This document shows, in pieces, positions 18,689 to 32,422 of a stretch of 59,958 nt of DNA. Within the stretch, counting starts at the first letter, position 1. Each line of letters begins with the position of its first letter. The DNA comes from a virus. The stretch covers positions 1-59,958 of the IMG/VR virus record IMGVR_UViG_3300025131_000039; one strand, given 5' to 3'. The notes under the pieces are model-generated. The model saw only the letters and a list, made by a program, of their open reading frames with translations, ran no database searches and was not told the origin of the DNA. Position numbers and translations under genes: made by a program.

Positions 18689-18696
18689 GACGAAAT

Positions 18697-18826: not shown

Positions 18827-18848
18827 CAACTACTTAACTAAGTAGTTG
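18827..18848. repeat. Perfect palindrome CAACTACTTA/TAAGTAGTTG
   Basis: Ten-base arms around AC, related to the palindrome at 18669. It is seven bases before the start of the hairpin at 18855. Confidence 0.6.
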
Positions 18849-18854
18849 AACTAG

Positions 18855-18905
18855 CTAATAAATACTTGGTAGGGAGTTCTTACGAACTACCAAGTAGTTT
18901 ATTAG
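18855..18905 (+). repeat. Intergenic hairpin C (CTTACGA-loop family)
   Basis: Outer stem CTAATAAA/TTTATTAG, inner stem TACTTGGTAG/CTACCAAGTA, loop GGAGTTCTTACGAA, one unpaired G on the 3' side between the stems. Same plan as the hairpins at 19563, 20715, 22523, 27860 and 32289. Thirty-five bases before the 51-residue gene. Confidence 0.75.
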
Positions 18906-18940
18906 AATTAGGATGAACCTGACGAATTGGAGATTGCCGA

Positions 18941-19096
18941 ATGATGAATAGAAATTGGAGAATTGAGCAGCTTATTCAAGCCAAGAAAGAGTTGGATAGA
19001 CAACTATCAATGGGAGTTGACGGCTTGGAGCATCATGGTCAACTACTGGACTACGAAGCAAAGCTTCTGGATGTAGAAACCGCTTTAACTAAATAA
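18941..19096 (+). CDS. Small helical protein, first rightward gene
   Basis: 51 residues starting MMNRNWRIEQLIQAKKELDRQL, with a second helix LLDYEAKLLDVETALTK, likely a two-helix or coiled-coil protein. GGAG lies 9 bases before the ATG. The stop codon lies inside the hairpin at 19089. Small and first after the control region, so a candidate immediate-early host-takeover protein; function unknown. Confidence 0.55.
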   Translation: MMNRNWRIEQLIQAKKELDRQLSMGVDGLEHHGQLLDYEAKLLDVETALTK

Positions 19097-19138
19097 TACT
19101 ACTTAGCTTGGTTAAGTATACCAAGCAGTATTATTTAG
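19089..19138 (+). repeat. Intergenic hairpin B (bulged variant)
   Basis: CTAAATAATACT (19089-19100) pairs with AGTATTATTTAG (19127-19138). Unpaired ACTTA (19101-19105), then GCTTGG/CCAAGC around a nine-base loop. It shares CTAA...TTAG ends with the CTTACGA-loop family and the ACTTA bulge with the hairpin at 18697. It contains the stop codon of the 51-residue gene. Confidence 0.65.
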
Positions 19139-19352
19139 AATTTAGGAAGGAGATTGTCCGATGGTTTAAGGTTATGTCCGAAGAAGTGATCTGTGGCTAC
19201 TCTCTGGAGCCACGGCTATGGGGCAAAGCAGGATGACAGAGAGGCGGTAGGGAGAAGATAAATCGTCAATCCCTACCGTAGGAAAGAGGAGCAGCTATGC
19301 TCTTGAAATAGTTTGGCGTACCTTTTTCAACTCAAATCCGAAAGGAAATATC
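19139..19352 (+). other. Untranslated stretch with two stem-loops
   Basis: No convincing gene; only a 20-codon frame from the ATG near 19174. Two stem-loops are visible: GTGGCT/AGCCAC (19193-19213) and CGGTAGGGA/TCCCTACCG (19245-19278). It could be a long leader for the 66-residue gene or a small RNA. Confidence 0.4.
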
Positions 19353-19553
19353 ATGTCTTTTGTAATGCAAGCTTTTGTCGATGGTGAATGGAAAAACATT
19401 AACCGTGGAAAAAACCAACATCAAAGAACTTGGAAGAAGATCAATTCTGAGTTGCCAGTTAGAGTTGTTCACTCTAACGGCTCTTTCAAAGTCACCTCTA
19501 ATGGTGAAAAGTTGGAAGGAACAGGCGAAGCCTTGTCCTTTGTGGCAAGGTAA
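19353..19553 (+). CDS. Small early protein, unrecognised
   Basis: 66 residues, strong site GAAAGGAAATATC before the ATG. Beta-rich and basic (MQAFVDGEWKNINRGKNQ, LPVRVVHSNGSFKVTSNG). No domain recognised. Flanked by structured untranslated stretches; the CTTACGA-loop hairpin D begins 10 bases after its stop. Confidence 0.6.
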   Translation: MSFVMQAFVDGEWKNINRGKNQHQRTWKKINSELPVRVVHSNGSFKVTSNGEKLEGTGEALSFVAR

Positions 19554-19562
19554 TCTTGCAAA

Positions 19563-19614
19563 CTAATAATACCCTGTAGTAGAGTATCTTACGATACTAC
19601 AGGGTAATTATTAG
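19563..19614 (+). repeat. Intergenic hairpin D (CTTACGA-loop family)
   Basis: Outer stem CTAATAAT/ATTATTAG, inner stem ACCCTGTAGTA/TACTACAGGGT, loop GAGTATCTTACGA, one unpaired A on the 3' side. Stem bases differ from the other members but remain paired. Confidence 0.8.
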
Positions 19615-19619
19615 AAAGT

Positions 19620-19935
19620 TGTCTTTGATGAGCCACATTGAATGTGGTTCATTTAAGCTAACTTATCTTGAGTTAGTTTACCAAAGTACTGTGTACTTTT
19701 GGGAAGTAGTGGTGGATGGTGGTTCACTAGCCGTAAGGCTGAAAAATAGGACAAGCTAGGTCTGGCGAAAGCTCACTTAGTGTAACTACTCAAGGTTAGG
19801 GGCTTGAGGGAACTGATCATCTACTATCAGAGATACTTTGCAAGGTATCTTTGATAGTCAAGTGCATCCTAGTGTGTGCGACTCGGAGGCGTCCTCCCCG
19901 CAGCAGAAGGTTCGATTCCTTCTGGCTTCCCATAA
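19620..19935 (+). ncRNA. Structured non-coding region with tRNA-like 3' end
   Basis: No gene in 19554-19973. At least six stem-loops can be drawn: GAGCCACAT/ATGTGGTTC (19630-19650), CCAAAGTAC/GTACTTTTGG (19681-19702), AGCC-GTAA-GGCT near 19730, CTCAAG/CTTGAG near 19790-19808, a 14-pair stem at 19823-19858, and GGAGG-CGT-CCTCC near 19884. It ends with a T-arm-like GAAGG-TTCGATT-CCTTC (19906-19922). GCTTCCC (19925-19931) can pair with GGGAAGT (19701-19707). Stem lengths and the 230-base span do not fit a normal tRNA, and no tmRNA tag is seen. An unusual RNA, a decayed tRNA, or a tRNA-derived attachment site remain possible. Confidence 0.35.
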
Positions 19936-19973
19936 GTACATGGTACATAACTTGTCTTGAAAGGAGAAGAACT

Positions 19974-20192
19974 ATGTCAAAGAGAAAGGCCGAAAGGCAG
20001 TTGCAAAGGTTCTTGGATTGGTGCAATGCCAACCCACAAAGTACAAGTCAAGAGTGGGTCAAGAACTTTAAGAGAATGGGCTGGACAGCTCAGAGTGATT
20101 TCGGATTCTGGACTAGGGAGAATGAAGAACATCAAGCTTCAAAGAAGTTTGGTTTTGTTTTGAACAATCCCGGCAGGGAATTTACTAACTAA
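19974..20192 (+). CDS. Small early protein, unrecognised
   Basis: 72 residues from the ATG at 19974, chosen for AAAGGAGAAGAACT upstream (a longer frame begins at 19851 in the structured region). Basic N-terminal helix MSKRKAERQLQRFLDWCNANP, then SQEWVKNFKRMGWTAQSDFGFW. The first helix could contact nucleic acid, but no family is recognised. Confidence 0.6.
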   Translation: MSKRKAERQLQRFLDWCNANPQSTSQEWVKNFKRMGWTAQSDFGFWTRENEEHQASKKFGFVLNNPGREFTN

Positions 20193-20209
20193 TCTTGAAA
20201 GGAGCTGTT

Positions 20210-20398
20210 ATGGATATCACAATCCAAATTCAGAACGACACGGCTTATCCAGCTTGTAGTAATGCCAAGCTATTCGCTGAAATAGCAGGGACAAAGACTT
20301 TGACAACAGAAGTCTTGCAAAGAATTATGTGGCTTGGTTTCAAAATTAAACTTGCATCTTCCGATGAACTCTTAGATAATTGGCTCAGAAAGGAGTAA
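20210..20398 (+). CDS. Small early protein, unrecognised
   Basis: 62 residues from MDITIQIQNDTAYPACSN; the ATG at 20210 is preceded by AAAGGAG. Later TEVLQRIMWLGFKIKLASSDELLD suggests mixed helix and strand. No domain recognised. Five bases before the next small gene. Confidence 0.55.
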   Translation: MDITIQIQNDTAYPACSNAKLFAEIAGTKTLTTEVLQRIMWLGFKIKLASSDELLDNWLRKE

Positions 20399-20402
20399 TA
20401 CT

Positions 20403-20516
20403 ATGAACAAAGGCATAGTAGGTGGTGGATTTCTGTTATTCTCAACAGCGTTCACATTCTTAATCTTTGGCCTATGTGTAGGCTATTACTATGGAATGGC
20501 ATTTGCCACAATGTAA
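20403..20516 (+). CDS. Single-span membrane microprotein
   Basis: 37 residues: MNKGIVGGGFLLFSTAF followed by TFLIFGLCVGYYYGMAF. One long membrane span with a Lys near the N-terminus. AAAGGAGTAATACT lies before the ATG. Too short for a family call; a membrane-acting early protein is possible. Confidence 0.5.
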   Translation: MNKGIVGGGFLLFSTAFTFLIFGLCVGYYYGMAFATM

Positions 20517-20531
20517 AGGATTAGTACCAAA

Positions 20532-20705
20532 ATGCAAACAGCAAAACAATTCTTGGAATGGTATCTTGATATACAAAGCAAAGAGATAGACTTTGCAGAG
20601 GTGGAGAAGAATTTATTCTCTTTGCCAAAGCAAGAACAAGATACTATACGAAGGTTATTGACTTCTGCAAAAGCTAAGAAGGTTGATGACCTAGCTCAAT
20701 ATTAA
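20532..20705 (+). CDS. Small helical early protein
   Basis: 57 residues: MQTAKQFLEWYLDIQSKEID, AEVEKNLFSLPKQEQDTIRRLL and a basic end. All-helical and amphipathic. Weak upstream ribosome site (AAGGATTAGTACCAAA). Hairpin E begins 9 bases after its stop. Function unknown. Confidence 0.5.
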   Translation: MQTAKQFLEWYLDIQSKEIDFAEVEKNLFSLPKQEQDTIRRLLTSAKAKKVDDLAQY

Positions 20706-20714
20706 CTTGACAAC

Positions 20715-20766
20715 CTATTAAGTATCCTGTAGTAGATTACTTAAGATACTACAGGATGCTTAATAG
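20715..20766 (+). repeat. Intergenic hairpin E (CTTACGA-loop family, divergent)
   Basis: Outer stem CTATTAAG/CTTAATAG, a T opposite G between stems, inner stem ATCCTGTAGTA/TACTACAGGAT, loop GATTACTTAAGA (CTTAAGA instead of CTTACGA). The outer stem has changed on both sides relative to CTAATTAA/TTAATTAG, keeping pairing. Confidence 0.75.
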
Positions 20767-20782
20767 AAATAGGAGATTTGAT

Positions 20783-20917
20783 ATGAAGCCATTGTTATAT
20801 CCTAACCTTGATCGTTCCAAACTAACCAAAGCTGAATTGGAAGAACTCTTAGAATTGGAGGAACTTGAAGAGGCAAGATATCAAGATTGGTATGAAGATG
20901 CAGAACAACAGTTGTAA
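20783..20917 (+). CDS. Small acidic early protein
   Basis: 44 residues, MKPLLYPNLDRSKLTKAELEE then a Glu/Leu-rich helix and EDAEQQL. Preceded by AGGAG at 7 bases. Highly acidic; such early phage proteins often bind host DNA-binding proteins, but nothing specific supports that here. Confidence 0.5.
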   Translation: MKPLLYPNLDRSKLTKAELEELLELEELEEARYQDWYEDAEQQL

Positions 20918-20928
20918 GGAGTAAGACT

Positions 20929-21102
20929 ATGTTTGATAGTGCATTTGCGAAGTTGTCAAGAGAAGACAAAGAAGAACTACAAAGTAGGATAGACTTTACT
21001 ATCAGCAGTAACGCTGATTTATTCTTGATGACAAGTGAGCAAGAGAGTCGGTTCCGCTTCTATGAAACTCAAATATTCTTGAAAGAGAAAGGGTTAATTT
21101 AA
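20929..21102 (+). CDS. Small early protein, tandem paralogue 1
   Basis: 57 residues with FAKLSREDKEELQSRIDF near the start and FLKEKGLI at the end. The next gene repeats both (YAKLSAENKEELQNRIDF, FLKEKGLI). Stop and next start overlap (TAATG). Unknown function; a recent small-gene duplication. Confidence 0.6.
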   Translation: MFDSAFAKLSREDKEELQSRIDFTISSNADLFLMTSEQESRFRFYETQIFLKEKGLI

Positions 21103-21263
21103 TGCTTACAAGTATCTATGCAAAGTTATCAGCCGAAAATAAAGAGGAATTGCAAAATAGAATTGACTTTGTTATCAGTATAAATACTGATGGCTGCACC
21201 TCTGATGCTGACATTCGCTTCTTTGAAACCGAAGACTTCTTGAAAGAGAAAGGGTTAATCTAA
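21102..21263 (+). CDS. Small early protein, tandem paralogue 2
   Basis: 53 residues, about half identical to the preceding protein, with a different middle (SINTDGCTSDADIRFFETED). Overlaps both neighbours as TAATG, so translation is probably coupled along the three genes. Confidence 0.6.
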   Translation: MLTSIYAKLSAENKEELQNRIDFVISINTDGCTSDADIRFFETEDFLKEKGLI

Positions 21264-21940
21264 TGCAAGTCAAAGAATACGTGAGGCATTGTGAGGATAT
21301 CGGTATGTTTTCAACCGATAGACCTATTAATGACGTTGGAGATACAGAAGGTTCTTGTCTACATAGAACTCCTTACTGTGATGAAAAGTGTTACAACGTC
21401 AAGCTCTATAAGATGTATCCTAACATGGCTGTCAAAGATGTACGAAGTGAGGAGATATGGCAGAACATAAAGCCTTTGCAAGTCAAAGAAGTCTTGGCGA
21501 GAAAGCGTAAGCAAACCAAGAGAGTAAGGCATTGCACCAGAGGTGAGCCAATCAAAGAAGTCTCTGACATTTGGAAGATCAAAGCAGAGGCAAAAGCTAC
21601 GCCAGAGACTACATGGTGGATACCTACAAGAGCTTGGCGAGATCCAACTCTTAACTTCTTGATAAGAACAGAGTTATTTCCTATCAAGAACTTAGCGATT
21701 AATGCCAGCGTTGACCCATCAAATAGCGTAGAAGAATGGAATATGCTGGAAAGTCAAGGCTGGAATATCATGTTCTTTGGTGATGATAGTCTTGACAAAA
21801 GCCCTGCTTCTGGTAAAAGAATGTTTGATTGTCCAAAGACAAAGTGGGGTTTGAAAGGTCACTGTGGTATATGCAAAGCTGGTTGCTTTAGTCAGACTAC
21901 CATAGGTAGACAACAGATTGTCAAATTGTACGAACATTAG
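21263..21940 (+). CDS. Gp88-like cysteine-rich phage protein
   Basis: 225 residues. An N-terminal Cys group (SCLHRTPYCDEKCYNVKLY, about residues 31-49) and a C-terminal group (DCPKTKWGLKGHCGICKAGC, about 189-208) bracket a central domain with TWWIPTRAWRD, NLAINASVDPS and GWNIMFFGDDS. This plan, with CYN in place of the usual CYA, resembles the phage Gene product 88 family, whose function is unknown. Cys spacing suggests zinc or an Fe-S centre. Start overlaps the preceding stop. Confidence 0.6.
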   Translation: MQVKEYVRHCEDIGMFSTDRPINDVGDTEGSCLHRTPYCDEKCYNVKLYKMYPNMAVKDVRSEEIWQNIKPLQVKEVLARKRKQTKRVRHCTRGEPIKEVSDIWKIKAEAKATPETTWWIPTRAWRDPTLNFLIRTELFPIKNLAINASVDPSNSVEEWNMLESQGWNIMFFGDDSLDKSPASGKRMFDCPKTKWGLKGHCGICKAGCFSQTTIGRQQIVKLYEH

Positions 21941-21951
21941 GAGAGTATACT

Positions 21952-22221
21952 ATGAAGAAGTACATTCATGTTAACCAACATAACATCAAGAGTAACCGCA
22001 AGTATGGAGAGAATAAGCCTGTCTTTACAGTCAAGACTTACAAGTCTAATGACTATGGGCATGAGGTACATATTGACGGCCCATGTACCATAGTGTATAG
22101 TCCTCTAAAGCCTTTGTCTTGCGGTGCTCATGTCTGGATACAGACAGAGGCAGAGGTACATATCAAAGAGGAAAGAGAGCTGGATATTGGCACCATCGTT
22201 GACGTAACATCTAAAAGATAA
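21952..22221 (+). CDS. Small early protein, unrecognised
   Basis: 89 residues, beta-rich (KYGENKPVFTVKTYKSNDYGHEV, GPCTIVYSPLKPLSCGAHVWI, DIGTIVDV). GGAG 9 bases before the ATG. No known domain; an SH3- or barrel-like small fold is possible from strand density. Confidence 0.5.
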   Translation: MKKYIHVNQHNIKSNRKYGENKPVFTVKTYKSNDYGHEVHIDGPCTIVYSPLKPLSCGAHVWIQTEAEVHIKEERELDIGTIVDVTSKR

Positions 22222-22232
22222 GGAGTAACTAA

Positions 22233-22388
22233 ATGACAGAAGAAGAGTATCAAGAATATGTTTGCCAGTTGGCAAGAGAGCATGGCTCAATGCACTCTAC
22301 CTTGCAATGGCTGGAGAAGTATACCAATCTTGACAAGATATCTTTAGACATAGTGAAAGGAACTTTGGAGAATGTCACATCCAGTTAA
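22233..22388 (+). CDS. Small early protein, unrecognised
   Basis: 51 residues, MTEEEYQEYVCQLAREHGSMH then TLQWLEKYTNLDKISLD; helical and acidic. AAGGAG upstream. Its last 17 bases overlap the next gene in another frame. Confidence 0.5.
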   Translation: MTEEEYQEYVCQLAREHGSMHSTLQWLEKYTNLDKISLDIVKGTLENVTSS

Positions 22389-22530
22389 TGATATCATCTA
22401 CGATAACATGGAAGATCGTTATCAAGAACTTTATGCTATGTATATAGAGAAAGGTTATGCTCCTTACATAGCAGAAGATAGGGCGTTGATTGATGTCCGT
22501 GAGGAGTTTGAAATCTGTCAACCTAATTAA
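22372..22530 (+). CDS. Small acidic early protein
   Basis: 52 residues, MSHPVNDIIYDNMEDRYQEL then YIEKGYAPYIAEDRALIDVRE. Acidic and helical. TTGGAG precedes the ATG. The stop TAA (22528-22530) lies inside the outer arm of hairpin F. Confidence 0.5.
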   Translation: MSHPVNDIIYDNMEDRYQELYAMYIEKGYAPYIAEDRALIDVREEFEICQPN

Positions 22531-22574
22531 CCATATGTAGTGAAGTTCTTACGAACTACATATGGATTAATTAG
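22523..22574 (+). repeat. Intergenic hairpin F (CTTACGA-loop family)
   Basis: Outer stem CTAATTAA/TTAATTAG, inner stem CCATATGTAGT/ACTACATATGG, loop GAAGTTCTTACGA, one unpaired A on the 3' side. Stems identical to the hairpins at 27860 and 32289; the loop is two bases longer. Confidence 0.85.
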
Positions 22575-22603
22575 TACTAACAAAACTGAAAGGAAATATT
22601 GAG

Positions 22604-22774
22604 ATGAATTTTGTATTCCGTTTGCGTAAACGTGACCGCTTTTTTGGTACACGTAAGACCAAGGATGGCCGTAGGTTTGACCTTGGTAAGATGTATCTCC
22701 ACGTTGCAAAGGCTCCACATTTCTGGAATATTAAGGGAATAGTGGATGTACGTGGCCGTACTTTTGTGATATAA
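22604..22774 (+). CDS. Small basic early protein
   Basis: 56 residues, MNFVFRLRKRDRFFGTRKTK then RRFDLGKMYLHVAKAPHFW and VDVRGRTFVI. Very basic with aromatic residues, so nucleic-acid or ribosome binding is possible. GAAAGGAAATATTGAG before the ATG. Thirty bases after hairpin F. Confidence 0.55.
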   Translation: MNFVFRLRKRDRFFGTRKTKDGRRFDLGKMYLHVAKAPHFWNIKGIVDVRGRTFVI

Positions 22775-22780
22775 TATTAA

Positions 22781-22801
22781 GTGGGGGTGAAATTCCCCCA
22801 C
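22781..22801 (+). promoter_or_regulatory. GC-rich hairpin before the ParB-like gene
   Basis: GTGGGGG-TGAAATT-CCCCCAC, seven G/C-rich pairs, eight bases before the ribosome site of the gene at 22819. No U-run, so not a standard terminator. It may control translation or mRNA stability. Confidence 0.45.
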
Positions 22802-22818
22802 ATAACACGGAGAATGTT

Positions 22819-23598
22819 ATGAACAAGAGACTAAGAAGTAAACTGGGAAATCCTAGCTCACATAAATATTGTATATCACCTAGAAATTCTCTCTACAGAG
22901 AATTAAGAATGGTAAAGGAGAACAGAGTATTAAGTCAAAATAATCTATCTAAGTTAAGACAATCTATACTTGATGAAAACCTATTGGAGCTACGCCCCAT
23001 TCTTGTATATGAAAAGGGTGGTATATTATACATAGCAGATGGACAACATAGATATAAGATAGCCGTGGAAGAACATCTTGACTACTACATAGAGGTACAT
23101 GAAGGAGAAATAACACCAGAAACAATTGCAAAATTAAATACAAATCAAAGGAACTGGACTGTAATGGACTTTGCTCACTCATGGGCTACGTCAACAGGTA
23201 CGAAGAAAGTTTATTCAAAGTATCTTGAGTACTATGAGGACCACAATATAACACATTCGATGCTTATAAGTTTATTTAATGGTGGAACTCAGAGAGGAAT
23301 AGGGATGAAAGAATTTAAGGAAGGTAAATTAAAATGGAATCCCTTGATAAAAGAGTATGTAGAAGATGTACTCTATAAGATGAAACAACTTGAGTTTGCT
23401 GCGTTTAATCCAGCGATGAACAAGGTTACACTTAGAAGGCAGACGTTTCAAATAGGTATGCTTACCGCACTCAAGACACCTAAGTTTAGATTCAATAGAT
23501 TTATCAAGAACTTATATGATGTTAAACATAGATTTAATAAGTATCATAGAGTGGTTGACATTAAGCAAGAAATCTTTAGAATAGAGAGTGCTAAATAA
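22819..23598 (+). CDS. ParB-like nuclease-fold protein
   Basis: 259 residues. Residues about 30-100 match the ParB/sulfiredoxin-like fold: LSKLRQSILDENLLELRPILVYEKGG, then IADGQHRYKIAVE, where the (D)GxHR motif is the family signature. The C-terminal 150 residues are helical and basic with no HTH I can name. Phage members can be DNA-binding, nuclease or partition-type proteins; no parS-like repeat or ParA is seen, so partition is unlikely. Strong hairpin just upstream. Confidence 0.6.
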   Translation: MNKRLRSKLGNPSSHKYCISPRNSLYRELRMVKENRVLSQNNLSKLRQSILDENLLELRPILVYEKGGILYIADGQHRYKIAVEEHLDYYIEVHEGEITPETIAKLNTNQRNWTVMDFAHSWATSTGTKKVYSKYLEYYEDHNITHSMLISLFNGGTQRGIGMKEFKEGKLKWNPLIKEYVEDVLYKMKQLEFAAFNPAMNKVTLRRQTFQIGMLTALKTPKFRFNRFIKNLYDVKHRFNKYHRVVDIKQEIFRIESAK

Positions 23599-23611
23599 CT
23601 AGGAGAGGACC

Positions 23612-23794
23612 ATGAAAAAGAATGGCAAAGCTAAAGTTATACGCAATCAAGACTGTAAAAACCTTGCTGAACTTGAACAAAATTATGCTGGATTATGGAG
23701 AGCATTGGGATGGAAGGTAACAAAGAAAAAGAACTCCTTTATCTTGAGAAGCCAGTGCCATACCTATATGATAGGAGCTGGTGATGCAATATAA
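23612..23794 (+). CDS. Small basic early protein
   Basis: 60 residues, MKKNGKAKVIRNQDCKNLAE then YAGLWRALGWKVTKKKNSF and SQCHTYMIGAGDAI. Basic; unrecognised. AGGAG upstream; overlaps the next gene by 11 bases. Confidence 0.5.
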   Translation: MKKNGKAKVIRNQDCKNLAELEQNYAGLWRALGWKVTKKKNSFILRSQCHTYMIGAGDAI

Positions 23795-23948
23795 AACCCA
23801 TGCAGATATAGACCCACTGACAGAGAGTTATCTTTGCACAGTGGCTAATGTAGGAAGTATCTATGAGCTTGACATAGATGTTATTAACGAGTATCTTTTT
23901 GAGATGCACAGATATCATACAGTAAACAACCAGAAGGAAGTAGCATAA
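23784..23948 (+). CDS. Small acidic early protein
   Basis: 54 residues, MQYKTHADIDPLTESYLCTV and YELDIDVINEYLFEMHRYH. Unrecognised. AGGAG upstream (ATAGGAGCTGGTG). Its stop overlaps the start of the DUF932 gene (TAATG), implying coupled translation. Confidence 0.5.
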   Translation: MQYKTHADIDPLTESYLCTVANVGSIYELDIDVINEYLFEMHRYHTVNNQKEVA

Positions 23949-24853
23949 TGTTTGACTATCAAATGTTTGACCATGACAAGATTGATTTTGAAGTAGAAAA
24001 GTTTAACCTTGCATCCTATACAGATGGGTTCGTTGCTATACCCTCACATATAGGTGTAGGTCTTAGACGTAAAGATACTAGAGACACTCTTGCCATAGTC
24101 TCTGAAGCATATGAGCCAGTGCAATATAAAGACATAGTAACTGGCGTTCAAGAAGCTATAGGTCTATCCGATATGGACTTAACCGATGCCACATATGAGA
24201 CTAATGTCTATGATAATGGAGCAAGGCTTGAGCTACGTGCCAAGTTCCCTGCCCATGAGATACAGATAGACAAAGGAGACACAGTTATACCTGAGTTTGT
24301 CTTTCGTACTTCCCATAATAGGACATGGGCTAACAATGGTATGATGGGATTATGGAGAGGCTTCTGCTACAACACATTAGTATCAGGAGATAAGCTGGCC
24401 TATGTCTATGGTAGACACACCAAGAACTTCAACGTGCTAGGCTTTGCCTCAAAGATAGAGAAGGCTTCTGAATACATAGCTGGTGGTGGACTGCAACAGA
24501 TGAGGAACTGGTATCACACAGATGTTAGCCGTGATAATGTAATCAATCTGTTCACCCATACCTTGGCAAAGAAGACTAATAATATTAGCCGCAAGGTAGA
24601 ACCTAACAAGGTGATGCTCTCTAATCTAATGAAGATCTTTGATGAAGAGAACCGTCACCTACATGGAAGAGGTAGCTATGAGAAGTATGGCACACAGAAC
24701 AAAGGTACTATGTGGTCTGCTTATCAGGCTGCTACCTACTGGAGTAGCCATGATAAGAATGGTGGTAGACCATCCCACACTACCATAGGTGGTAGAGAAG
24801 ACAAGGTAAGGAAGATGTTACACTCACCACAATGGATGCAACTAGCAGCATAA
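23948..24853 (+). CDS. DUF932 (phage/plasmid-like) protein
   Basis: 301 residues. Typical phrases of the DUF932 group are AYEPVQYKDIVTGVQEAIG in the N-terminal third, ELRAKFP, PEFVFRTSHNRTWANNGMMGLWRGFCYN in the middle, and MWSAYQAATYWSSH near the end. The family is widespread in phages and plasmids, usually near early or replication genes; biochemical role unknown. The central Arg/Cys-containing block is the best conserved part. Confidence 0.75.
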   Translation: MFDYQMFDHDKIDFEVEKFNLASYTDGFVAIPSHIGVGLRRKDTRDTLAIVSEAYEPVQYKDIVTGVQEAIGLSDMDLTDATYETNVYDNGARLELRAKFPAHEIQIDKGDTVIPEFVFRTSHNRTWANNGMMGLWRGFCYNTLVSGDKLAYVYGRHTKNFNVLGFASKIEKASEYIAGGGLQQMRNWYHTDVSRDNVINLFTHTLAKKTNNISRKVEPNKVMLSNLMKIFDEENRHLHGRGSYEKYGTQNKGTMWSAYQAATYWSSHDKNGGRPSHTTIGGREDKVRKMLHSPQWMQLAA

Positions 24854-24864
24854 GGAATAGGACT

Positions 24865-25014
24865 ATGAAAGATCAGAGAGTTGTAGGTAAACGTAAGCAC
24901 AATCCATTAGCGAAGCAACTCTCTGATCCTATGTGGAGAAAGAGAGTTGTCACCAGTAAGGTTGTGTATAATAGAAAGAAAGTAAAGGATATAGACTATG
25001 TGGATCATAGTTAA
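24865..25014 (+). CDS. Small basic early protein
   Basis: 49 residues from MKDQRVVGKRKHNPLAKQ; AGGAATAGGACT precedes this ATG (a longer frame begins inside the DUF932 gene). Later LSDPMWRKRVVTSKVVYNRKK. The phrase K(H/R)NPLAKxLxDPxxRKRVVxxK is one I associate with small phage proteins of unknown role; Arg/Lys-rich. Confidence 0.55.
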   Translation: MKDQRVVGKRKHNPLAKQLSDPMWRKRVVTSKVVYNRKKVKDIDYVDHS

Positions 25015-25183
25015 TAGTGATTTCGATGAGGACTGTACCAACATACTCATGGGTGAGGATGGTGCGGCTTTGAAATTCAAAGATAAGACAAGTGCATATA
25101 GATACTTACAAAGTATGTGTAAGGAACATGGACTAGACTACGATTTAATGGAAGGTGATGTGGAATTATGGCGGCTTCACTAG
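24998..25183 (+). CDS. Small early protein, unrecognised
   Basis: 61 residues, MWIIVNSDFDEDCTNILMGE then ALKFKDKTSAYRYLQSMCKEHG and LMEGDVELWRLH. Alternating strand-helix-strand pattern. Overlaps both neighbours (17 and 16 bases). Confidence 0.5.
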   Translation: MWIIVNSDFDEDCTNILMGEDGAALKFKDKTSAYRYLQSMCKEHGLDYDLMEGDVELWRLH

Positions 25184-25452
25184 GTGGTGTCAAGCCACAC
25201 CACTCTGTACTTAAACGTGACAAAGACCATCCTCTATATATCAAAGGGGTACTGGATTGGATGGAGCATAATAATGCTTTGGTAAAAGAACATTCCAGAT
25301 TAGCTAGGCGTGGTGATAAGGATAGCATGTCTCAAAGATATATACATGAAGGATATGTCAGAGATATTAGACACTATCTGCGAACAGGAGATTGGATATC
25401 TGATTTCTTTGGTAAGAATCAAGAACATAAAATTAAATGGAGAAGTATATGA
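25168..25452 (+). CDS. Small early protein, unrecognised
   Basis: 94 residues, MAASLGGVKPHHSVLKRDKD, VLDWMEHNNALVKEHSRLAR, SQRYIHEGYVRDIRHYLRTG and IKWRSI. Helical and basic-aromatic. Overlaps the next start as ATGA. Confidence 0.5.
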   Translation: MAASLGGVKPHHSVLKRDKDHPLYIKGVLDWMEHNNALVKEHSRLARRGDKDSMSQRYIHEGYVRDIRHYLRTGDWISDFFGKNQEHKIKWRSI

Positions 25453-25882: not shown

Positions 25883-26117
25883 GAAAGAACTACGAAGGAA
25901 TGTTAAAGAGTTGCAAGAACAATTGCAAAGGGCATATGAAAGAATAAAACTTTTGCAAGATGAGATTCACAGTGAACGTCAGAGGAATTTCTACAACGAT
26001 CACTTCTCCAATAAGGATAAATCTGGATGGGCCATGATAGAGCACCCACCTGAGTATCTTGAAGAGGGTCATGCTGAGTTGCCCTATCCTATTGAAAAGA
26101 CAGAGAATGATGTATGA
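25872..26117 (+). CDS. Small coiled-coil protein
   Basis: 81 residues from MNIEKELRRNVKELQEQLQR; AAGGAGCTGTCC precedes the ATG. The first 45 residues form a clear coiled coil, followed by KSGWAMIEHPPEYLEEGHAE. Likely an oligomer; role unknown. Confidence 0.5.
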   Translation: MNIEKELRRNVKELQEQLQRAYERIKLLQDEIHSERQRNFYNDHFSNKDKSGWAMIEHPPEYLEEGHAELPYPIEKTENDV

Positions 26118-26433
26118 AGATGCCAAGATATTAAGTAGGCATGACTTCCTTGAAAAATATGGTAACCACAATGAGTGGATCTATGATAAGGTACATGGTG
26201 AATGGATAAGAGAAATTCTAAAAGAAAGTCTTAAGTCTATAGATAATAGAAAAGAAAAGGAGAGGCAGATGAGTAAAGTAAATGACTTACTAATTCAGAT
26301 GGAAGAGGAAGCTCCACATATTACTAAGACTGCTTTCGTTGGAAAGTATGGGTGGATACATGAAGATGTATGGACAAAGGTTCGTATTGAAATGAGAGAT
26401 CAACTTGGATTGGAGTTAGAAGATGAAGACTAA
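26107..26433 (+). CDS. Small protein with an internal repeat
   Basis: 108 residues (start 26107, or 26110). Two related blocks: HDFLEKYGNHNEWIYDKVHGEW near residue 12 and TAFVGKYGWIHEDVWTKVRIE near 72, joined by a charged linker, suggesting duplication of a helical unit. Unrecognised. Overlaps both neighbours. Confidence 0.5.
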   Translation: MMYEDAKILSRHDFLEKYGNHNEWIYDKVHGEWIREILKESLKSIDNRKEKERQMSKVNDLLIQMEEEAPHITKTAFVGKYGWIHEDVWTKVRIEMRDQLGLELEDED

Positions 26434-26701
26434 AGAACATATCTGTCAAGTCTATGACTTTACTTCCATTAGAGAAGTAATCATGGAGAAGAAGCAAGAG
26501 AAAGAGAAAGCAAGGTATCAAGATAAGTTAGCTGAGATGCAGATAGATCAGGATAACATCACACTTGATCTGTTTACCATCAGAGACATGATACTTAATG
26601 GCTTTGATCCCTCTTGCCCTGAAGACATAGTAGAATATGGAAGGAAGGTGGGCTATGAGATTGATTGGGATACAGGAACATGGAATCCAACCGATGACTA
26701 A
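26423..26701 (+). CDS. Small early protein, unrecognised
   Basis: 92 residues with a charged helix (IREVIMEKKQEKEKARYQDK) and a C-terminal part ending VGYEIDWDTGTWNPTDD. Acidic. Overlaps neighbours by 11 and 8 bases. Confidence 0.5.
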   Translation: MKTKEHICQVYDFTSIREVIMEKKQEKEKARYQDKLAEMQIDQDNITLDLFTIRDMILNGFDPSCPEDIVEYGRKVGYEIDWDTGTWNPTDD

Positions 26702-26873
26702 GACTTTTATACAAGAAGAACGAGACAAATACTTCTGGATTAGGGTTAAAGAATATAAGAGGGAAGGATACTCGTATAGAGAAGCAAAAGGATTAGCTAG
26801 TCAAGATACAAATGAAGCTATGGCTTCAGATGAAATCTGGATGGAGCAGTTTGAGAAGGAGACATGGGAATGA
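26694..26873 (+). CDS. Small early protein, unrecognised
   Basis: 59 residues from MTKTFIQEERDKYFWIRVKE, helical and charged, with EAKGLASQDTNEAMASDEIW. The chosen ATG overlaps the preceding stop region. Stop overlaps the next start (ATGA). Confidence 0.5.
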   Translation: MTKTFIQEERDKYFWIRVKEYKREGYSYREAKGLASQDTNEAMASDEIWMEQFEKETWE

Positions 26874-27145
26874 AATACAGTGGAGTAGCTTGTATAGAGT
26901 GGCTTGACTCTTCAGAGTATGAGGATGCCGATTGGAAGTCAGAAGATGAGGTCAAAGAATTAACACCTATGCGTATCAAAAGTGTAGGTATACTAGTCAA
27001 TGAGGATGACTTGTATATTACACTTGCATCCTCTGTTAATAACTATGATCTTGATTGTGAAGCACAGTATGGCGGTTTGATATCTATTCCTAAATGTGCA
27101 GTCTTAAAAAGATTATCTTTACCAAGGGTATTTACAGATGACTGA
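26870..27145 (+). CDS. Small acidic early protein
   Basis: 91 residues from MKYSGVACIEWLDSSEYEDA. AAGGAG lies at correct spacing for the ATG at 26870. Reads as beta strands (MRIKSVGILVNEDDLYITLA, GGLISIPKCAVLKRLS). Acidic and unrecognised. Overlaps thyX by 8 bases. Confidence 0.5.
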   Translation: MKYSGVACIEWLDSSEYEDADWKSEDEVKELTPMRIKSVGILVNEDDLYITLASSVNNYDLDCEAQYGGLISIPKCAVLKRLSLPRVFTDD

Positions 27146-27851
27146 GAATGGATGGGTTAATCTAGAGGACCACTTAGGTACTGACGTTACAGTAGTTAAT
27201 GCAGCAAGAGTATCCTTTGGTAAACAAATAAATATTATGAACGAACCAGATGAAAGGTTAATAGCTTATCTTGCCAAGCATAATCATTGGTCACCTTTCT
27301 CTCATTGTTATGTAGTGTTTCGTATCAGAGCACCTATCTTTGTAGCTCGTCAGTTAGTTAAGCATCAAGTAGGCTTGGCTTGGAATGAAATAAGTAGAAG
27401 ATATATTGACAAGCCACCTGAGTTTTGGTATCCCTCTAAGTGGAGAGAGAAAGCTGAAGATAAGAAGCAAGGATCAACAGACAATGAGGTGCATGGTAAT
27501 CAGTGGATACAGGAGAAGTATAATAAAGCTATTGAACTATGTCAGCAAACGTATGAAGATATGATAAAGGCAGGGGTCTGTCCTGAACAAGCCAGAACTA
27601 TACTACCTCAGTCCCTTTATACTGAATGGTACTGGAGTGGTAGTCTCTATGCCTTTGCCAGAGTATGTAATCTTAGATTAAGTCCAGATGCACAAGAAGA
27701 AACTAGATGGGTAGCAGAATGCATATCATATCATATGCATAAGTTATATCCTGTCTCATGGAGAGAACTTATGAAACATAAAATAGAAGAGGAGATGAGT
27801 GAACGTATGAAAGAAATATATAGTGGCACTTGGCCGGGTCCGGGTGTGTAA
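27138..27851 (+). CDS. thyX: FAD-dependent thymidylate synthase
   Basis: 237 residues, normal length for ThyX. Makes dTMP from dUMP using methylene-tetrahydrofolate and FAD. Signature helix-loop at residues 71-89: RQLVKHQVGLAWNEISRRY, equivalent to the family motif RQ..RHR..S.NE.S.RY, with KHQ replacing RHR and Leu/Ala where Ser is usual. Other conserved parts: HWSPFSH near residue 50, EQARTILP near 153 and LY.FARVCNLRL near 175. The altered motif needs checking but is embedded in an otherwise intact protein. Works with the NrdJ at 35504 to supply nucleotides. Confidence 0.9.
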   Translation: MTENGWVNLEDHLGTDVTVVNAARVSFGKQINIMNEPDERLIAYLAKHNHWSPFSHCYVVFRIRAPIFVARQLVKHQVGLAWNEISRRYIDKPPEFWYPSKWREKAEDKKQGSTDNEVHGNQWIQEKYNKAIELCQQTYEDMIKAGVCPEQARTILPQSLYTEWYWSGSLYAFARVCNLRLSPDAQEETRWVAECISYHMHKLYPVSWRELMKHKIEEEMSERMKEIYSGTWPGPGV

Positions 27852-27859
27852 CATGGAAA

Positions 27860-27909
27860 CTAATTAACCATATGTAGTAGTTCTTACGAACTACATATGG
27901 ATTAATTAG
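27860..27909 (+). repeat. Intergenic hairpin G (CTTACGA-loop family)
   Basis: CTAATTAA/TTAATTAG outer, CCATATGTAGT/ACTACATATGG inner, loop AGTTCTTACGA, unpaired A at 27901. Identical to the hairpin at 32289. It occupies the gap between thyX and the primase-helicase gene and ends three bases before the AAGGGG ribosome site. Confidence 0.9.
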
Positions 27910-27921
27910 AAAGGGGAAAAT

Positions 27922-29544
27922 ATGCTGAAGAAACAGTGGCTCGACAGAGGGCCATGTCCTAAATGTAAGTCATCCGATGCTAATGTTAAGCATGAGCAGG
28001 GATATTCGTATTGCTTTAGTTGTAATACAAAGTTTGGTGATAATGTTGCTATTGTACCTAAACAAGAATGGACGGTGAAACCTATGTCAACAACTGGAAG
28101 TTGGGGTAATATTAGTGATCGTAAGATTACTATGGATACCGCAAAGAAATATAGTACAAAGATAAAGCAATCTGGTAACATCGTGACCCATCATCTGTAT
28201 GGTTACTTCAACGATAGTGGTGAGCAGATAGGTCACAAAGTTAGACAGTGCAAAGACAAAAGAATGTGGGTGGAAGGTGAGCTAACTGATGCCCTGTTGT
28301 TTGGTCAGAATATATTCTCACCGAAGGGTAAGTATATAACTATATGTGAAGGTGAAGTGGATGCCATGTCAGCCTATGAACTGATGGGATCTAAGTGGCC
28401 TTCTGTATCTATCAAGACAGGAGCTGGTTCAGCATTGCGTGATTGCAAGAATGCATTCACTTATCTGGATAGCTTTGATAACGTAATCATATGCTTTGAC
28501 ATGGACAAGCAAGGTCAAGAAGCTGCACAAGAAGTAGCTCAGTTGTTTGCACCTAACAAGGCAAGGATAGTACGTATGGATCACAAGGATGCTAATGAGT
28601 ATCTCAAGATGGGACAACGTGCTGCCTTCAATGATTGCTGGTGGAATGCAAAGCCATTCACACCTGCTGGTATAATTAATCTCAAAGACTTAGGCGAAAC
28701 ATTATACGATGAGGATTTCTGTGAGACTTGTCTCTATCCTTGGCCTCGTATGAATGAGAAGACCTATGGTATGCGAACAGGAGAACTGATTACATTCTGT
28801 AGTGGTAGTGGTATGGGTAAGTCAAGTATCATACGTGAACTTATGCATCACTTCCTACGTAATACAAAAGATAACATAGGTATACTTGCTCTTGAGGAGA
28901 GTGTGAAGAACACGGCATGGAACATCATGTCAGTGGAAGCAGATGCTAGGTTGTACATCAAGGAGATTAGAGATCAGTTTACACCAGAGCAATTGCAGAA
29001 GTTCCAAGCGGAGACTATTAACTCTGGTAGGTTCTTTGCCTTTGATCACTTTGGATCAGTGGACAATGACGAGATACTAGCAAGGGTTAGGTTTATGGCT
29101 CAAGCTCTTGATTGTAAATGGATTTGTCTGGATCACTTAAGCATACTTGTATCAGGTCAAGAGGATACAGATGAACGTAAGTCCATCGACATACTAATGA
29201 CCAAGCTACGATCTCTCGTGGAGCAGACAGGTATATGCTTGTTACTTGTATCCCATCTACGTAGGCCATCTGGTGACAGAGGACATGAGGATGGTAGGGA
29301 AGTAACACTCTCTCACTTGAGAGGTTCCGCATCCATAGGACATCTGAGTGATGGTGTCATTGGATTGGAGCGCAACCAGCAAGACGATGATCCAATCATA
29401 GCCAACACAACTACCATACGTATACTCAAGAACAGATATACAGGAGATACAGGTGTGGCTACACATTTATTTTATAACAAAGACACAGGTAGGATGACTG
29501 AAATAGACAACCCATTTGATGTAGGAGATACTAATGCCGATTAA
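27922..29544 (+). CDS. Primase-helicase (T7 gp4-like)
   Basis: 540 residues. Zinc-binding motif Cys12, Cys15, Cys31, Cys34; TOPRIM primase core with EGEVDAMS at about 143-150 and CFDMDKQG near 191-198; linker; RecA-like DnaB-family helicase with Walker A GSGMGKSS at about 295-302, LALEESV near 320, and a Walker B-type WICLDHLSIL near 398. Unwinds DNA and makes primers at the fork with the polymerase at 30652. Full length compared with T7 gp4 (566). Preceded by hairpin G. Confidence 0.9.
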   Translation: MLKKQWLDRGPCPKCKSSDANVKHEQGYSYCFSCNTKFGDNVAIVPKQEWTVKPMSTTGSWGNISDRKITMDTAKKYSTKIKQSGNIVTHHLYGYFNDSGEQIGHKVRQCKDKRMWVEGELTDALLFGQNIFSPKGKYITICEGEVDAMSAYELMGSKWPSVSIKTGAGSALRDCKNAFTYLDSFDNVIICFDMDKQGQEAAQEVAQLFAPNKARIVRMDHKDANEYLKMGQRAAFNDCWWNAKPFTPAGIINLKDLGETLYDEDFCETCLYPWPRMNEKTYGMRTGELITFCSGSGMGKSSIIRELMHHFLRNTKDNIGILALEESVKNTAWNIMSVEADARLYIKEIRDQFTPEQLQKFQAETINSGRFFAFDHFGSVDNDEILARVRFMAQALDCKWICLDHLSILVSGQEDTDERKSIDILMTKLRSLVEQTGICLLLVSHLRRPSGDRGHEDGREVTLSHLRGSASIGHLSDGVIGLERNQQDDDPIIANTTTIRILKNRYTGDTGVATHLFYNKDTGRMTEIDNPFDVGDTNAD

Positions 29545-30058
29545 ATTTGATAGAAATTTATATAATAAATATGATTCCTTAACTAAGAATGTTATGAGTC
29601 ATTGGTTATTATCTAAAGGTTATAAGGATATTAATACTGAAGAAACATATGGAGTAGATGTCGTATGTAAAGATAAGTTAGGTTTGGAGTGTTACTTTGA
29701 GACAGAGATAAAGACAAGCTGGCGTGACCATTGGCCTGAGTCTTGGAAGGAGATACGTATTCCATACAGGAAGCATAAGCTCATAGACAAGTGGGTAAGC
29801 TCAGTGAAATCGGAGGGGTGTATTGGTCCCTTAACCTTTGTCATATTCAACAAGCACTTGGATCAGGCATGGTTTATGGATGGCTCTATGGTTAGTGAGA
29901 GTGATGTTAAACCAGTGGACAATAGAAGGAGAGCAGCAGAGCCTTTCTATCATATCAAAGTAGCTGATGCTAAGTTAGTGAAGGTAATGCCAAGTCCAGT
30001 ATTAAAGGAGAAAGGTTATGACAAAGATTTACTCATTAATAGTAAGTACCCTAGCTAG
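29534..30058 (+). CDS. PD-(D/E)XK-like nuclease, putative
   Basis: 174 residues. TYGVDVVCKDKLGLECYF followed by ETEIKTSW gives the D...(E)xK arrangement of the PD-(D/E)XK fold at about residues 38-63, then IRIPYRKHKLIDKW. Phage proteins of this sort act in recombination or DNA degradation. It overlaps the primase-helicase stop by 11 bases. The fold call rests on this one motif. Confidence 0.55.
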   Translation: MPIKFDRNLYNKYDSLTKNVMSHWLLSKGYKDINTEETYGVDVVCKDKLGLECYFETEIKTSWRDHWPESWKEIRIPYRKHKLIDKWVSSVKSEGCIGPLTFVIFNKHLDQAWFMDGSMVSESDVKPVDNRRRAAEPFYHIKVADAKLVKVMPSPVLKEKGYDKDLLINSKYPS

Positions 30059-30263
30059 ATGGATACCCCTCTTGGTCTTTATACCCATATTATCGTGGAT
30101 GGTTATGATGCTTACCGTCTTAATCGTAAAGCATTATATAGAGGACTTACCGTACAGCAACGGCTTTTCAATGTGGCTATGTTCTTTAATTACAGCTTAC
30201 GTTTTCTGTCTGTATAACTTTATGAGGAGTAAACGTGTTAGTATCAATAACGAATCAAGCTGA
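30018..30263 (+). CDS. Two-span membrane protein
   Basis: 81 residues. Two hydrophobic spans (WIPLLVFIPILSWMVMMLTV and FSMWLCSLITAYVFCLYN) with a basic, Ser/Asn-rich tail. AAAGGAGAAAGGTT before the ATG. It overlaps both neighbours (41 and 29 bases). Unknown; it could be an anchoring or lysis-timing protein. Confidence 0.5.
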   Translation: MTKIYSLIVSTLARWIPLLVFIPILSWMVMMLTVLIVKHYIEDLPYSNGFSMWLCSLITAYVFCLYNFMRSKRVSINNESS

Positions 30264-30555
30264 CCATCATCTGTCAGGTATAGTTAAATCAGAGAATGCA
30301 ATAGGCATAGAGCTTGGTGTTAAAGGTGGTGGTTGTGCTGGCTTTACATACCAATGGGAAGTTTTGTTTGACATTCCTGATGAACATGATATAATTCCAC
30401 TTAAAGAAGGGAAGTTATATATTAAGAAAGAAGCAACGATGTTATTAATAAATACAACTATAGACTTCTCTACTGGTATTAATGGTAATTATATTATATT
30501 TAAGAATCCTAATGCTACATCACAGTGTGGATGTGGAGAAAGTTTTGGGATATGA
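30235..30555 (+). CDS. A-type iron-sulfur carrier (IscA/ErpA-like)
   Basis: 106 residues from a GTG at 30235 with GAGGAGTAAAC upstream. The three family cysteines are present: Cys34 in GGGCAGFTY, and Cys98 and Cys100 in QCGCGESF, giving the spacing of HesB/IscA/ErpA proteins. These pass Fe-S clusters to target enzymes. Located between nuclease and polymerase genes; a target could be an Fe-S phage nuclease (the Cys-rich RecB-like protein at 32948 is a candidate) or a host enzyme. Intact and of normal length. Confidence 0.85.
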   Translation: MLVSITNQADHHLSGIVKSENAIGIELGVKGGGCAGFTYQWEVLFDIPDEHDIIPLKEGKLYIKKEATMLLINTTIDFSTGINGNYIIFKNPNATSQCGCGESFGI

Positions 30556-30761
30556 AATATAAAATGTGGGAACATTGGTGCCCAGTGGAACACACAACTA
30601 TAAACGTAGGAAACGGAGAGGAGTGTAACTGGTGTGGACAAGACGAGGAATATGAAAGTCGCAACCGTAGATATAGAAACAGATTCACTACAACCAACAT
30701 TAATCCATTGTATAGTAGCAAAGGATCATCAGACATCACAGATACAAGTGTGGGATCATAG
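30552..30761 (+). CDS. Small zinc-ribbon-like protein overlapping polymerase
   Basis: 69 residues from MKYKMWEHWCPVEHTTINVG; HWCP near residue 8 and CNWCG near 28 form a likely zinc knuckle. ATGA overlap with the Fe-S carrier stop supports the start. The last 37 residues lie in another frame over the polymerase N-terminus and look low in complexity (NRRYRNRFTTTN), so selection on this end may be weak. Confidence 0.5.
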   Translation: MKYKMWEHWCPVEHTTINVGNGEECNWCGQDEEYESRNRRYRNRFTTTNINPLYSSKGSSDITDTSVGS

Positions 30762-32292
30762 TAATCTTGATACGTTTAAGGATTGGGCTAAAACTATTGA
30801 TCGTTTTGTCATGCATAATGGTATTTCGTTTGATGCACCTAATCTTAACAAGCTACTAGGCACACAGATTAAGTTGGAACAGGTCATAGATACCTTGGTA
30901 TTATCACAACTTATCAATCCCATTAGAGATAAAGGTCATAGTCTTCAGGCATGGGGTGAACGGTTAGGTCATTACAAGATGGAGCATGAGGACTTCTCGC
31001 AGTACTCAAAGAGTATGCTTGAGTATTGTAAGAATGATGTTGAGTTAACCTATGAGGTATACAATCAGTTAGCTAAAGAAGGAGCTACCTTCTCCAAGAA
31101 ATCTATTCGTATGGAACATAAGGTACGTGCCATAGTAGATAAACAGGAGAAGAATGGCTTTGCTTTAGACATACGTAAGACCATAGGATTACTGTCTCGC
31201 CTCACTGATGAAGCTCAAGATCTTGAAGCATGGTCTAAGGTATCCTTTGAACCTACAGCAGTGGAGTTAAAGACCAAGACAAAGTACATACCATTTAATA
31301 TAGGATCACGACAGCAGATCGCTGATCGTTTGATGGAGCTTGGTTGGAAACCAAAGGAGTTCACTGAGAAGTCAGGACAACCTAAGATTAGTGAAGAGAT
31401 TCTTGATAAGATTAAGATGGAAGAAGCACATAAGTTTTCACGATACTTCCTATTGCAAAAGAGAATAGCTCAGATACAATCTTGGATTAATTCCTATGAC
31501 GATACCACTGGTAGGGTACATGGTAGAGTATTAACTCTAAAGACTATCACTGGCCGTATGGCTCACCATAGTCCTAACATGGCTCAGATACCAGCAGTAC
31601 GTAGTCCCTTTGGTAAGGAGTGTAGAGCCTGTTGGACTGTGGATAATCCACATACTCATACTCTGGTAGGTACAGATGCTTCTGGTCTTGAGCTACGATG
31701 CCTTGCCCATCTGATGGACAGTAAAGATTATACTAATGAGATCCTCAATGGTGATGTACATACAGCTAACATGAAGATGGCTGGCCTCACCGACAGGGAT
31801 CAAGCAAAGACATTTATCTATGCATTTATGTATGGAGCAGGTGCCGCCAAGATCGGTAAGATCGTAGGTGGTAACAAAGATCATGGACAGGAACTAATGG
31901 ATAGGTTCTTGTCTAATATGCCAGCCCTAAAACGTGTCCGTAACAGCGTTCAGAAGGCCGCTGAGAGGGGTATGATACGAGGGGTGGATGGCAGACACCT
32001 GCATATAAGATCACCTCATGCTGCTCTTAACACCTTAATACAAGGAGCAGGAGCAAGTATATGTAAGGATTGGCTTATTAATATGATACAAAGAATAAGC
32101 CACAAAGGAATTGATGCACGATTAGTTGCTTCAATACATGACGAGTACCAGTTCGAGGTAGCAAAGAAGGATGTGAACCAGTTCGGTATCATAACCAAGG
32201 ATGCTATCAAGGATACGGAACTCAAGTTAAAGTTCAGATGCCCACTGGATAGTACATGGAAGCATGGAACGACATGGGCTGAGACACACTAA
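30652..32292 (+). CDS. DNA polymerase I family (T7-like)
   Basis: 546 residues from MKVATVDIETDSL (an upstream GTG at 30634 is possible). Exonuclease motifs: DIETD near residue 7; HNGISFDAPN near 54; YCKNDVELTY near 125. Polymerase: TGRMAHHSPNMAQIP, motif A DASGLELR, motif B RDQAKTFIYAFMYGAG and motif C SIHDEYQFEV. The residue equivalent to E. coli Phe762 is Tyr, as in T7 polymerase. Shorter than T7 gp5 (704), with no thioredoxin-binding insert that I can see. Replicative polymerase. Its stop lies inside hairpin H. Confidence 0.9.
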   Translation: MKVATVDIETDSLQPTLIHCIVAKDHQTSQIQVWDHSNLDTFKDWAKTIDRFVMHNGISFDAPNLNKLLGTQIKLEQVIDTLVLSQLINPIRDKGHSLQAWGERLGHYKMEHEDFSQYSKSMLEYCKNDVELTYEVYNQLAKEGATFSKKSIRMEHKVRAIVDKQEKNGFALDIRKTIGLLSRLTDEAQDLEAWSKVSFEPTAVELKTKTKYIPFNIGSRQQIADRLMELGWKPKEFTEKSGQPKISEEILDKIKMEEAHKFSRYFLLQKRIAQIQSWINSYDDTTGRVHGRVLTLKTITGRMAHHSPNMAQIPAVRSPFGKECRACWTVDNPHTHTLVGTDASGLELRCLAHLMDSKDYTNEILNGDVHTANMKMAGLTDRDQAKTFIYAFMYGAGAAKIGKIVGGNKDHGQELMDRFLSNMPALKRVRNSVQKAAERGMIRGVDGRHLHIRSPHAALNTLIQGAGASICKDWLINMIQRISHKGIDARLVASIHDEYQFEVAKKDVNQFGIITKDAIKDTELKLKFRCPLDSTWKHGTTWAETH

Positions 32293-32338
32293 TTAACCAT
32301 ATGTAGTAGTTCTTACGAACTACATATGGATTAATTAG
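32289..32338 (+). repeat. Intergenic hairpin H (CTTACGA-loop family)
   Basis: Same 50-base sequence as the hairpin at 27860: CTAATTAA/TTAATTAG, CCATATGTAGT/ACTACATATGG, loop AGTTCTTACGA, unpaired A. Contains the polymerase stop codon (32290-32292) and is followed by a sigma-70-like promoter. Confidence 0.9.
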
Positions 32339-32356
32339 ATTAAGGTAATTTTGTTG

Positions 32357-32385: not shown

Positions 32386-32422
32386 TCATTTTTAAACAAT
32401 AGATATATAGGAGATATAAAAT

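Follow-up and report, generated by a model that had tools for sequence, protein, structure and literature searches.

Intercistronic hairpins with a GA/GA apex and arms that change in concert in a group of uncultured phages

Introduction

The window analysed here is the IMG/VR virus record IMGVR_UViG_3300025131_000039 at its full length of 59,958 bases (positions 1 to 59,958). Its rightward early/middle block carries six related hairpins (Table 1), which raise the question of what such elements do and how their arms stay complementary while the arm sequences change. The hairpins are built, as read from the sequences, on the plan stem - GA - XY - loop - Y'X' - GA - stem, and their arms evolve in concert. 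All six hairpins listed in an earlier note on this DNA are present at the coordinates given there. The covariance models R1 and R2 each recover exactly these six on the + strand, with other matches far weaker; this result is confirmatory and not independent, because both models were partly built from window sequences. The region 18400-33500 has a strong excess of stems that reach 10 bp or more and enclose 3-16 nt: 13 are listed, counting overlapping registers, whereas 40 dinucleotide shuffles give 0.35 on average and 3 at most.

Table 1. Hairpins of the window, with their positions, surroundings and apices
Hairpin	Position	Strand	Location	Apex	Remarks
1	18855-18905	+	Leader of the rightward early operon	GGA-GT-TCTT-AC-GA	Outer stem CTAATAAA/TTTATTAG, unpaired G, inner stem TACTTGGTAG/CTACCAAGTA
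2	19563-19614	+	10 nt past ORF 19353-19553	GA-GT-ATCTT-AC-GA	
3	20715-20766	+	10 nt past ORF 20532-20705	GA-TT-ACTT-AA-GA	Compensated mini-stem TT/AA; T.G at 20723/20758 replaces the bulge
4	22523-22574	+	Overlaps the stop of ORF 22372-22530	GAA-GT-TCTT-AC-GA (22542-22554, +)	GAA is the 5' side and GA the 3' side of the GA/GA mismatch
5	27860-27909	+	Between thymidylate synthase (27138-27851) and primase/helicase (27922-29544)	A-GT-TCTT-AC-GA	
6	32289-32338	+	Overlaps the stop of DNA polymerase (30634-32292)		Sequence identical to hairpin 5

Structure of the hairpins

A first alignment of 38 hairpins gave a conserved AGT..CTTACG..ACT core, with 158 double-sided and 5 one-sided changes, and a loop-agnostic scan revealed variants that redefine this consensus. 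The CTTACGA motif, which the earlier note regarded as a conserved loop, resolves in the window into an apex of the form GA (GAA, GGA or A)-XY-4-5 nt loop-Y'X'-GA; the CTTAAGA of copy 20715 is a compensated exchange of TT/AA for GT/AC. The mini-stem XY/Y'X' is a covarying element of 2 bp, found as GT/AC, AC/GT, AT/AT, TT/AA (window copy 20715) and CT/AG. It closes a variable apical loop of 3-6 nt, with TCTT, ATCTT, ATA, TATA, ACA, ACTT, AGTT, ATTA and TTTTT among the forms seen. The sole invariant letters across 31 aligned copies are G, A, G and A; these copies were picked by the GA/GA pattern, and the invariance itself rests on the loop-agnostic and dinucleotide-pair scans. GA/GA accounts for 66 distinct hairpins in the loop-agnostic scan, and other dinucleotide pairs for at most 6 each, except the reverse complement and related variants (AA/GA).

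When the copies are folded in this way the mini-stem cells are 100% paired, with four pair types, against 84% in a competing fold that has zero double changes in its own two pairs; wobble-allowing pairing was a condition for choosing the mini-stem copies, one that put the competing fold at no disadvantage in the stem. Wobble pairs (U.G or G.U) occur in the mini-stem of 8-9 copies and A.C in none, as RNA would allow, which supports a role at the RNA level. The GA opposite GA probably forms tandem G.A pairs, for which the sequence suggests a sheared geometry. Below the apex, some 11 Watson-Crick pairs form the inner stem and some 8 bp the outer one, usually with one small defect between them: among 130 hairpins one small defect was present in 81 and two in 15, and none was found in 34. 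The shared stem plan proposed for the six window copies holds overall, except that the supposed unpaired purine of copy 20715 is a T.G opposition and not a 1-nt bulge. Since GA is invariant on both arms and its complement would read TC/TC, it is probably the coding strand that folds.

Other folds were considered and set aside. A bulge with a UUAC tetraloop is excluded, as the GA/GA fold alone accommodates copy 20715 and the variants CT/AG, AC/GT and AT/AT, and a bulge-loop pseudoknot, considered from the same covariation, gave way to the simpler GA/GA fold. The 3-nt bulge before tandem G.A that defines a kink-turn was not seen: 63 of the 66 GA/GA hairpins have 0 extra nt before GA and 3 have 1, in a scan that permitted at most 2, and the aligned copies likewise lack a 3-nt form. 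Two apical variants lie outside the GA/GA class, GTA-AC-GAA-GT-GT (L213) and GGA-ACA-GAA-TGT (L178); the former occupies a position equivalent to that of ordinary copies in relatives.

Placement between cistrons

Placement was scored on 133 distinct hairpins with flanks. An ORF stop lies close upstream of 118, at a median of 6 nt ahead of the hairpin start, a weak criterion alone, as 87 of the 133 meet it on the opposite strand too. A Shine-Dalgarno sequence with ATG follows on the same strand in 113 of the 133, at 10-124 nt (median 26), and on the opposite strand in 5; k-mers downstream of the hairpins are mostly Shine-Dalgarno-like. The hairpins of any one record are confined to one strand and, where the record is long, to the early/middle region. 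In the window, as had been noticed before, five of the six start no more than 10 nt from a stop codon or overlap one, and the sixth (18855) stands in the early leader. A count of the string TTGACA alone places it within 40 nt upstream of 23 and downstream of 9 of the 133 hairpins. A sigma-70-like promoter at 32357-32385 lies downstream of hairpin 6 and ahead of the gene for the single-stranded DNA (ssDNA)-binding protein, so that hairpin 6 would be part of the polymerase mRNA, in its 3' region, and outside the leader transcribed from that promoter. No U-run follows the stem at any of the six window hairpins, which agrees with the view that they are not ordinary terminators.

Evolution of the arms

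The arms comprise 87 distinct 11-nt sequences. Their pairing was counted at pairs 5-10 of 130 distinct hairpins (n=780), which entered the choice of copies only through a minimum of 3 of 6 pairs and the choice of bulge length, and consists of 743 Watson-Crick, 1 G.T, 5 A.C and 31 other oppositions. G.T is more frequent at the outer pairs 11 and 13 (15 and 10), where the stem defect lies. In T7, nine intergenic gaps that we take to be RNase III sites have G-U in 31 of 172 predicted pairs (18%). At matching sites with alignable flanks 42 double changes were counted against 9 expected, and 7 single changes against 82 expected; the expectation assumes independent arms at the divergence of the flanks, and the counts carry no phylogenetic correction. 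G-U is impossible as an intermediate for half of the double changes.

The near absence of G-U and the paired change at matching sites are not what ordinary RNA covariation gives. The double-sided changes, put forward in the earlier note as strong evidence for selection on structure, are real, but with G-U at 1 of 780 in the long arms they are weak evidence for RNA-level selection here. The wobble of the mini-stem, set against the wobble-free arms, indicates that the apex evolves like RNA and the arms like copied DNA. The pattern points to arm-to-arm copying or pairing at the DNA level. Template switching would be the simplest cause, and strict selection for a perfect duplex the alternative. 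Tentatively, the hairpins may form a self-templating palindrome family, in which a selected GA/GA apex carries arbitrary arms that are rewritten arm-to-arm at each change; the hairpin would persist while its sequence drifts, and copies would convert across sites and phages.

Distribution, gain and loss

The design recurs in about 100 IMG/VR stretches, so that further copies in related phages, on which the earlier note had made its proposal depend, do exist. Three exact-core patterns matched 37, 54 and 15 stretches, some contigs repeatedly. R1 found matches in 18 of 29 whole records, the 11 empty ones being relatives chosen by helicase similarity, and in all 24 pattern-chosen records, one of which (G034) was unconfirmed by R2. 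The weak R1 match in this 89-kb record and the pattern match L100 were discarded, as R2 gives them no support. Most hairpin-bearing records hold several copies. Seven cultured relatives proved free of the hairpin, and so did T7 (searched with R2). Two strict core patterns gave 0 matches in 84,980 bacterial and archaeal genomes, and an origin in the host was rejected on these two patterns, other arm types not having been searched. Rfam gave no match above the gathering score, only weak sub-threshold ones, and a literature search, mostly without subscription journals, found no description of the hairpin. No protein is common to all hairpin-bearing records and missing from the hairpin-less relatives, in a comparison that includes partial genomes, and no convincing shared phage protein came out of it.

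The carriers are a group of uncultured viruses of bacteria, apparently marine. The window phage is podovirus-like, and its portal protein ties it to the HTVC023P group at 30-43% identity to cultured phages. Its late block runs leftward and its early/middle block rightward, the latter with genes for thymidylate synthase, primase/helicase, DNA polymerase, a Gp2.5-like ssDNA-binding protein and ribonucleotide reductase. The hairpin occurs in no fewer than two phage lineages that differ in terminase: G006 has a terminase unlike that of the window phage, shares terminase and portal with G023, and bears the same hairpins. Because the lineages have early genes in common, exchange of the early region is likely.

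Among relatives the same gene pair occurs with or without a hairpin (at the helicase and polymerase sites), and the edges are not clean. Units of a small ORF and a hairpin were gained, lost or duplicated (L014 against L092; G001 against G023), and at the helicase site of G013 the hairpin is kept though thymidylate synthase is missing. At the polymerase site, L003-L005 carry a copy equal to the window's 22523 copy, and the window itself carries there the sequence of its 27860 copy; this identity across sites indicates conversion between them. A Y1 (HUH) transposase was found in 0 of 10 hairpin-bearing records with the positive controls detected, a negative that applies to phage-encoded enzymes.

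Comparison with known systems

The nearest known kinds are the RNase III sites of T7, the extended start-associated sequences (ESAS) of Cluster K mycobacteriophages and the promoter-early stem-loops (PeSLs) of T4-type phages, and none fits fully. The comparison with T7 made in the earlier note stands at the level of structure. Like the T7 sites (R0.3 to R18.5), the hairpins are intercistronic, lie on the coding strand with about two helical turns and a central irregularity, and occur several times per genome in an early/middle operon; a two-turn double-stranded intercistronic stem on the mRNA strand, the mark of a T7-type RNase III site, is thus present. T7 differs in having no conserved GA/GA apex (R2 finds none) and in stems rich in G-U, unlike the arms described here, and the window phage lacks a T7-type RNA polymerase.

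In PMC3203893, ESAS are described as inverted repeats just upstream of starts, repeated, nearly all in one orientation and limited to the non-structural half of the genome, which is similar to the present case. As described there, ESAS have arms with a consensus and a 13-bp start-associated sequence (SAS); here the arms are free, with 87 distinct forms, the apex is conserved, and the conserved 13-bp SAS is missing. The PeSLs (Arbiol 2010 and Comeau 2014, as cited in PMC4503421) are likewise multi-copy stem-loops among early genes and tied to the shuffling of small ORFs, but are presented there as composite promoter-terminators, whereas the present hairpins have no U-run and, by the TTGACA count, no consistent promoter. 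Palindromes of Nematomorpha mitochondria (PMC6649704) have arms that change together and stay perfect, as here, but are located in protein genes and differ from the small conserved apex and fixed intercistronic placement of the phage hairpins. Template switching at inverted repeats is described in PMC8604942 and PMC6649704 as homogenising the arms; the repeats of PMC8604942 too have concerted perfect arms and, unlike the present ones, lie in protein genes.

Several further candidates were rejected or lack a defining part. An integron attC site is not indicated, the conserved part being at the apex here and not at the base. An N4-type hairpin promoter would need space for the start site, which the 20-bp stem does not offer, and a search for T7-family RNA polymerase domains found none, the N4 virion polymerase itself not having been searched for. 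A REP/RAYT or IS200/IS605-derived palindrome would be accompanied by a Y1 transposase in the same genome, which the ten phage records lack.

Interpretation

The best reading, at about even odds (roughly 0.5), is that these are intercistronic hairpins for mRNA processing and/or 3'-end protection, with arms kept complementary by template switching. They would act in cis on the polycistronic early and middle phage mRNA, in the slot that follows a stop codon and precedes the next ribosome-binding site. The stem of about two turns, usually with one central defect, and the GA/GA-capped apex would make a stable double-stranded block, which would most likely be processed by an enzyme of the host RNase III type and/or shield the 3' end and so determine how stable the upstream cistron is. 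The arm sequence is free; its exact complementarity would be kept most simply through template switching in replication, with one arm copied from the other, and copies at separate sites also homogenise one another. The structure, strand, placement and copy number of the hairpins, and the conservation of GA/GA and the mini-stem, are direct observations, and so is the concerted change of the arms; template switching is the mechanism proposed for the latter, and action at the RNA level, by cleavage or protection, is what the former suggest.

An mRNA cis-element of some kind is fairly probable, as the hairpins stand on the coding strand in a slot from stop to start, have an RNA-like mini-stem and lack a U-run. 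Processing by RNase III specifically is possible but doubtful. With about 11 + 8 bp and one defect, the stem matches a T7 RNase III site in size; no RNase III gene was found in ten phage records, so any such enzyme would have to be the host's. A T7-type RNA polymerase was not found in the phage, with T7 as positive control, which suggests host-type transcription. Several points weigh against mRNA processing or protection. A single G-U in 780 arm pairs is unexpected under RNA selection alone, given 18% in the T7 gaps, and bacterial RNase III is not known to require a conserved apex. The same genes occur in relatives without the hairpins, which are hence not essential to the gene order. The counts of concerted change use non-independent pairs of related sequences, with the divergence pooled over flanks that are partly coding.

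The shunning of G.T in the long arms as strongly as A.C, and the double changes that G-U could not have bridged, would also suit a DNA-level site for recombination, repair or replication, at which the coding strand, when single-stranded, extrudes the hairpin and presents the GA/GA apex to a protein that recognises it, so that the arms must be Watson-Crick perfect. GA/GA between a pyrimidine and a purine is known as a mismatch motif that is stable in DNA, and folding of the DNA strand far exceeds that of shuffles (z -7 to -9). Such a site is rather unlikely, as the placement is strictly coding-strand and stop-to-start, the mini-stem accepts wobble, and the ten hairpin-bearing records contain no Y1 transposase. 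The same missing transposase bears on mobile or recombinogenic palindromes that would spread between intergenic sites and phages and act, PeSL-like, as joints for shuffling small early genes. The presence or absence of a hairpin in the same gene pair, the turnover of ORF-hairpin units, the copies shared across sites and the two virion lineages are what such elements would produce; they are nevertheless unlikely, given arms not conserved as transposon ends would be, unclean insertion edges and, by the TTGACA count, no consistent neighbouring promoter.

A conserved apex on variable arms, in several copies within one operon, could mark the place where an RNA-binding protein, encoded by phage or host, recognises the GA/GA cap in control of translation or antitermination. 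The loop itself is variable, and the partial genomes yielded no protein distributed like the hairpins, which makes this quite improbable. Intrinsic terminators or chance palindromes would likewise be stable hairpins placed after genes, but they are already contradicted by the missing U-run, by an ordinary terminator-like site elsewhere in the window (32912-32938) and by the excess of long stems, and hardly need be considered.

Other features of the window

Another family of covarying hairpins, marked by the 5-nt bulge ACTTA on the 5' side (CT-ACTTA-GC...GC-AG), is present at 18697-18740 and 19090-19141 and, with different arm sequences, in several hairpin-bearing records. The early leader at 18675-18740 can form mutually exclusive hairpins, in which CTAAGTAGTAGTT/AACTACTACTTAG shares bases with the 5' arm of a hairpin trailed by a T-run, an attenuator-like arrangement. 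A possible tRNA-His (GTG) with a 138-nt intron lies at 19703-19931; ARAGORN detects it solely if introns are allowed, the acceptor TGGGAAG/CTTCCCA and the T-arm are clear, and the only Rfam match is a weak one of the 3' part to beta_tmRNA. A ParB-like gene at 22819-23598 is missing as a unit in the close relative G013. The stretch 33808-34524 encodes a GIY-YIG homing endonuclease, SegE-like (PF19835), and 39162-41507 a 781-aa protein with an MptE-like domain (PF01973) at its C-terminus and without a PHROGs match.

Significance

Double-sided changes are commonly taken as proof of a selected RNA structure. The hairpins described here are a clear and countable case in which such changes are unlike slow RNA compensation, and they add to this group of uncultured phages a multi-copy cis-element that is absent from Rfam and from the literature searched.

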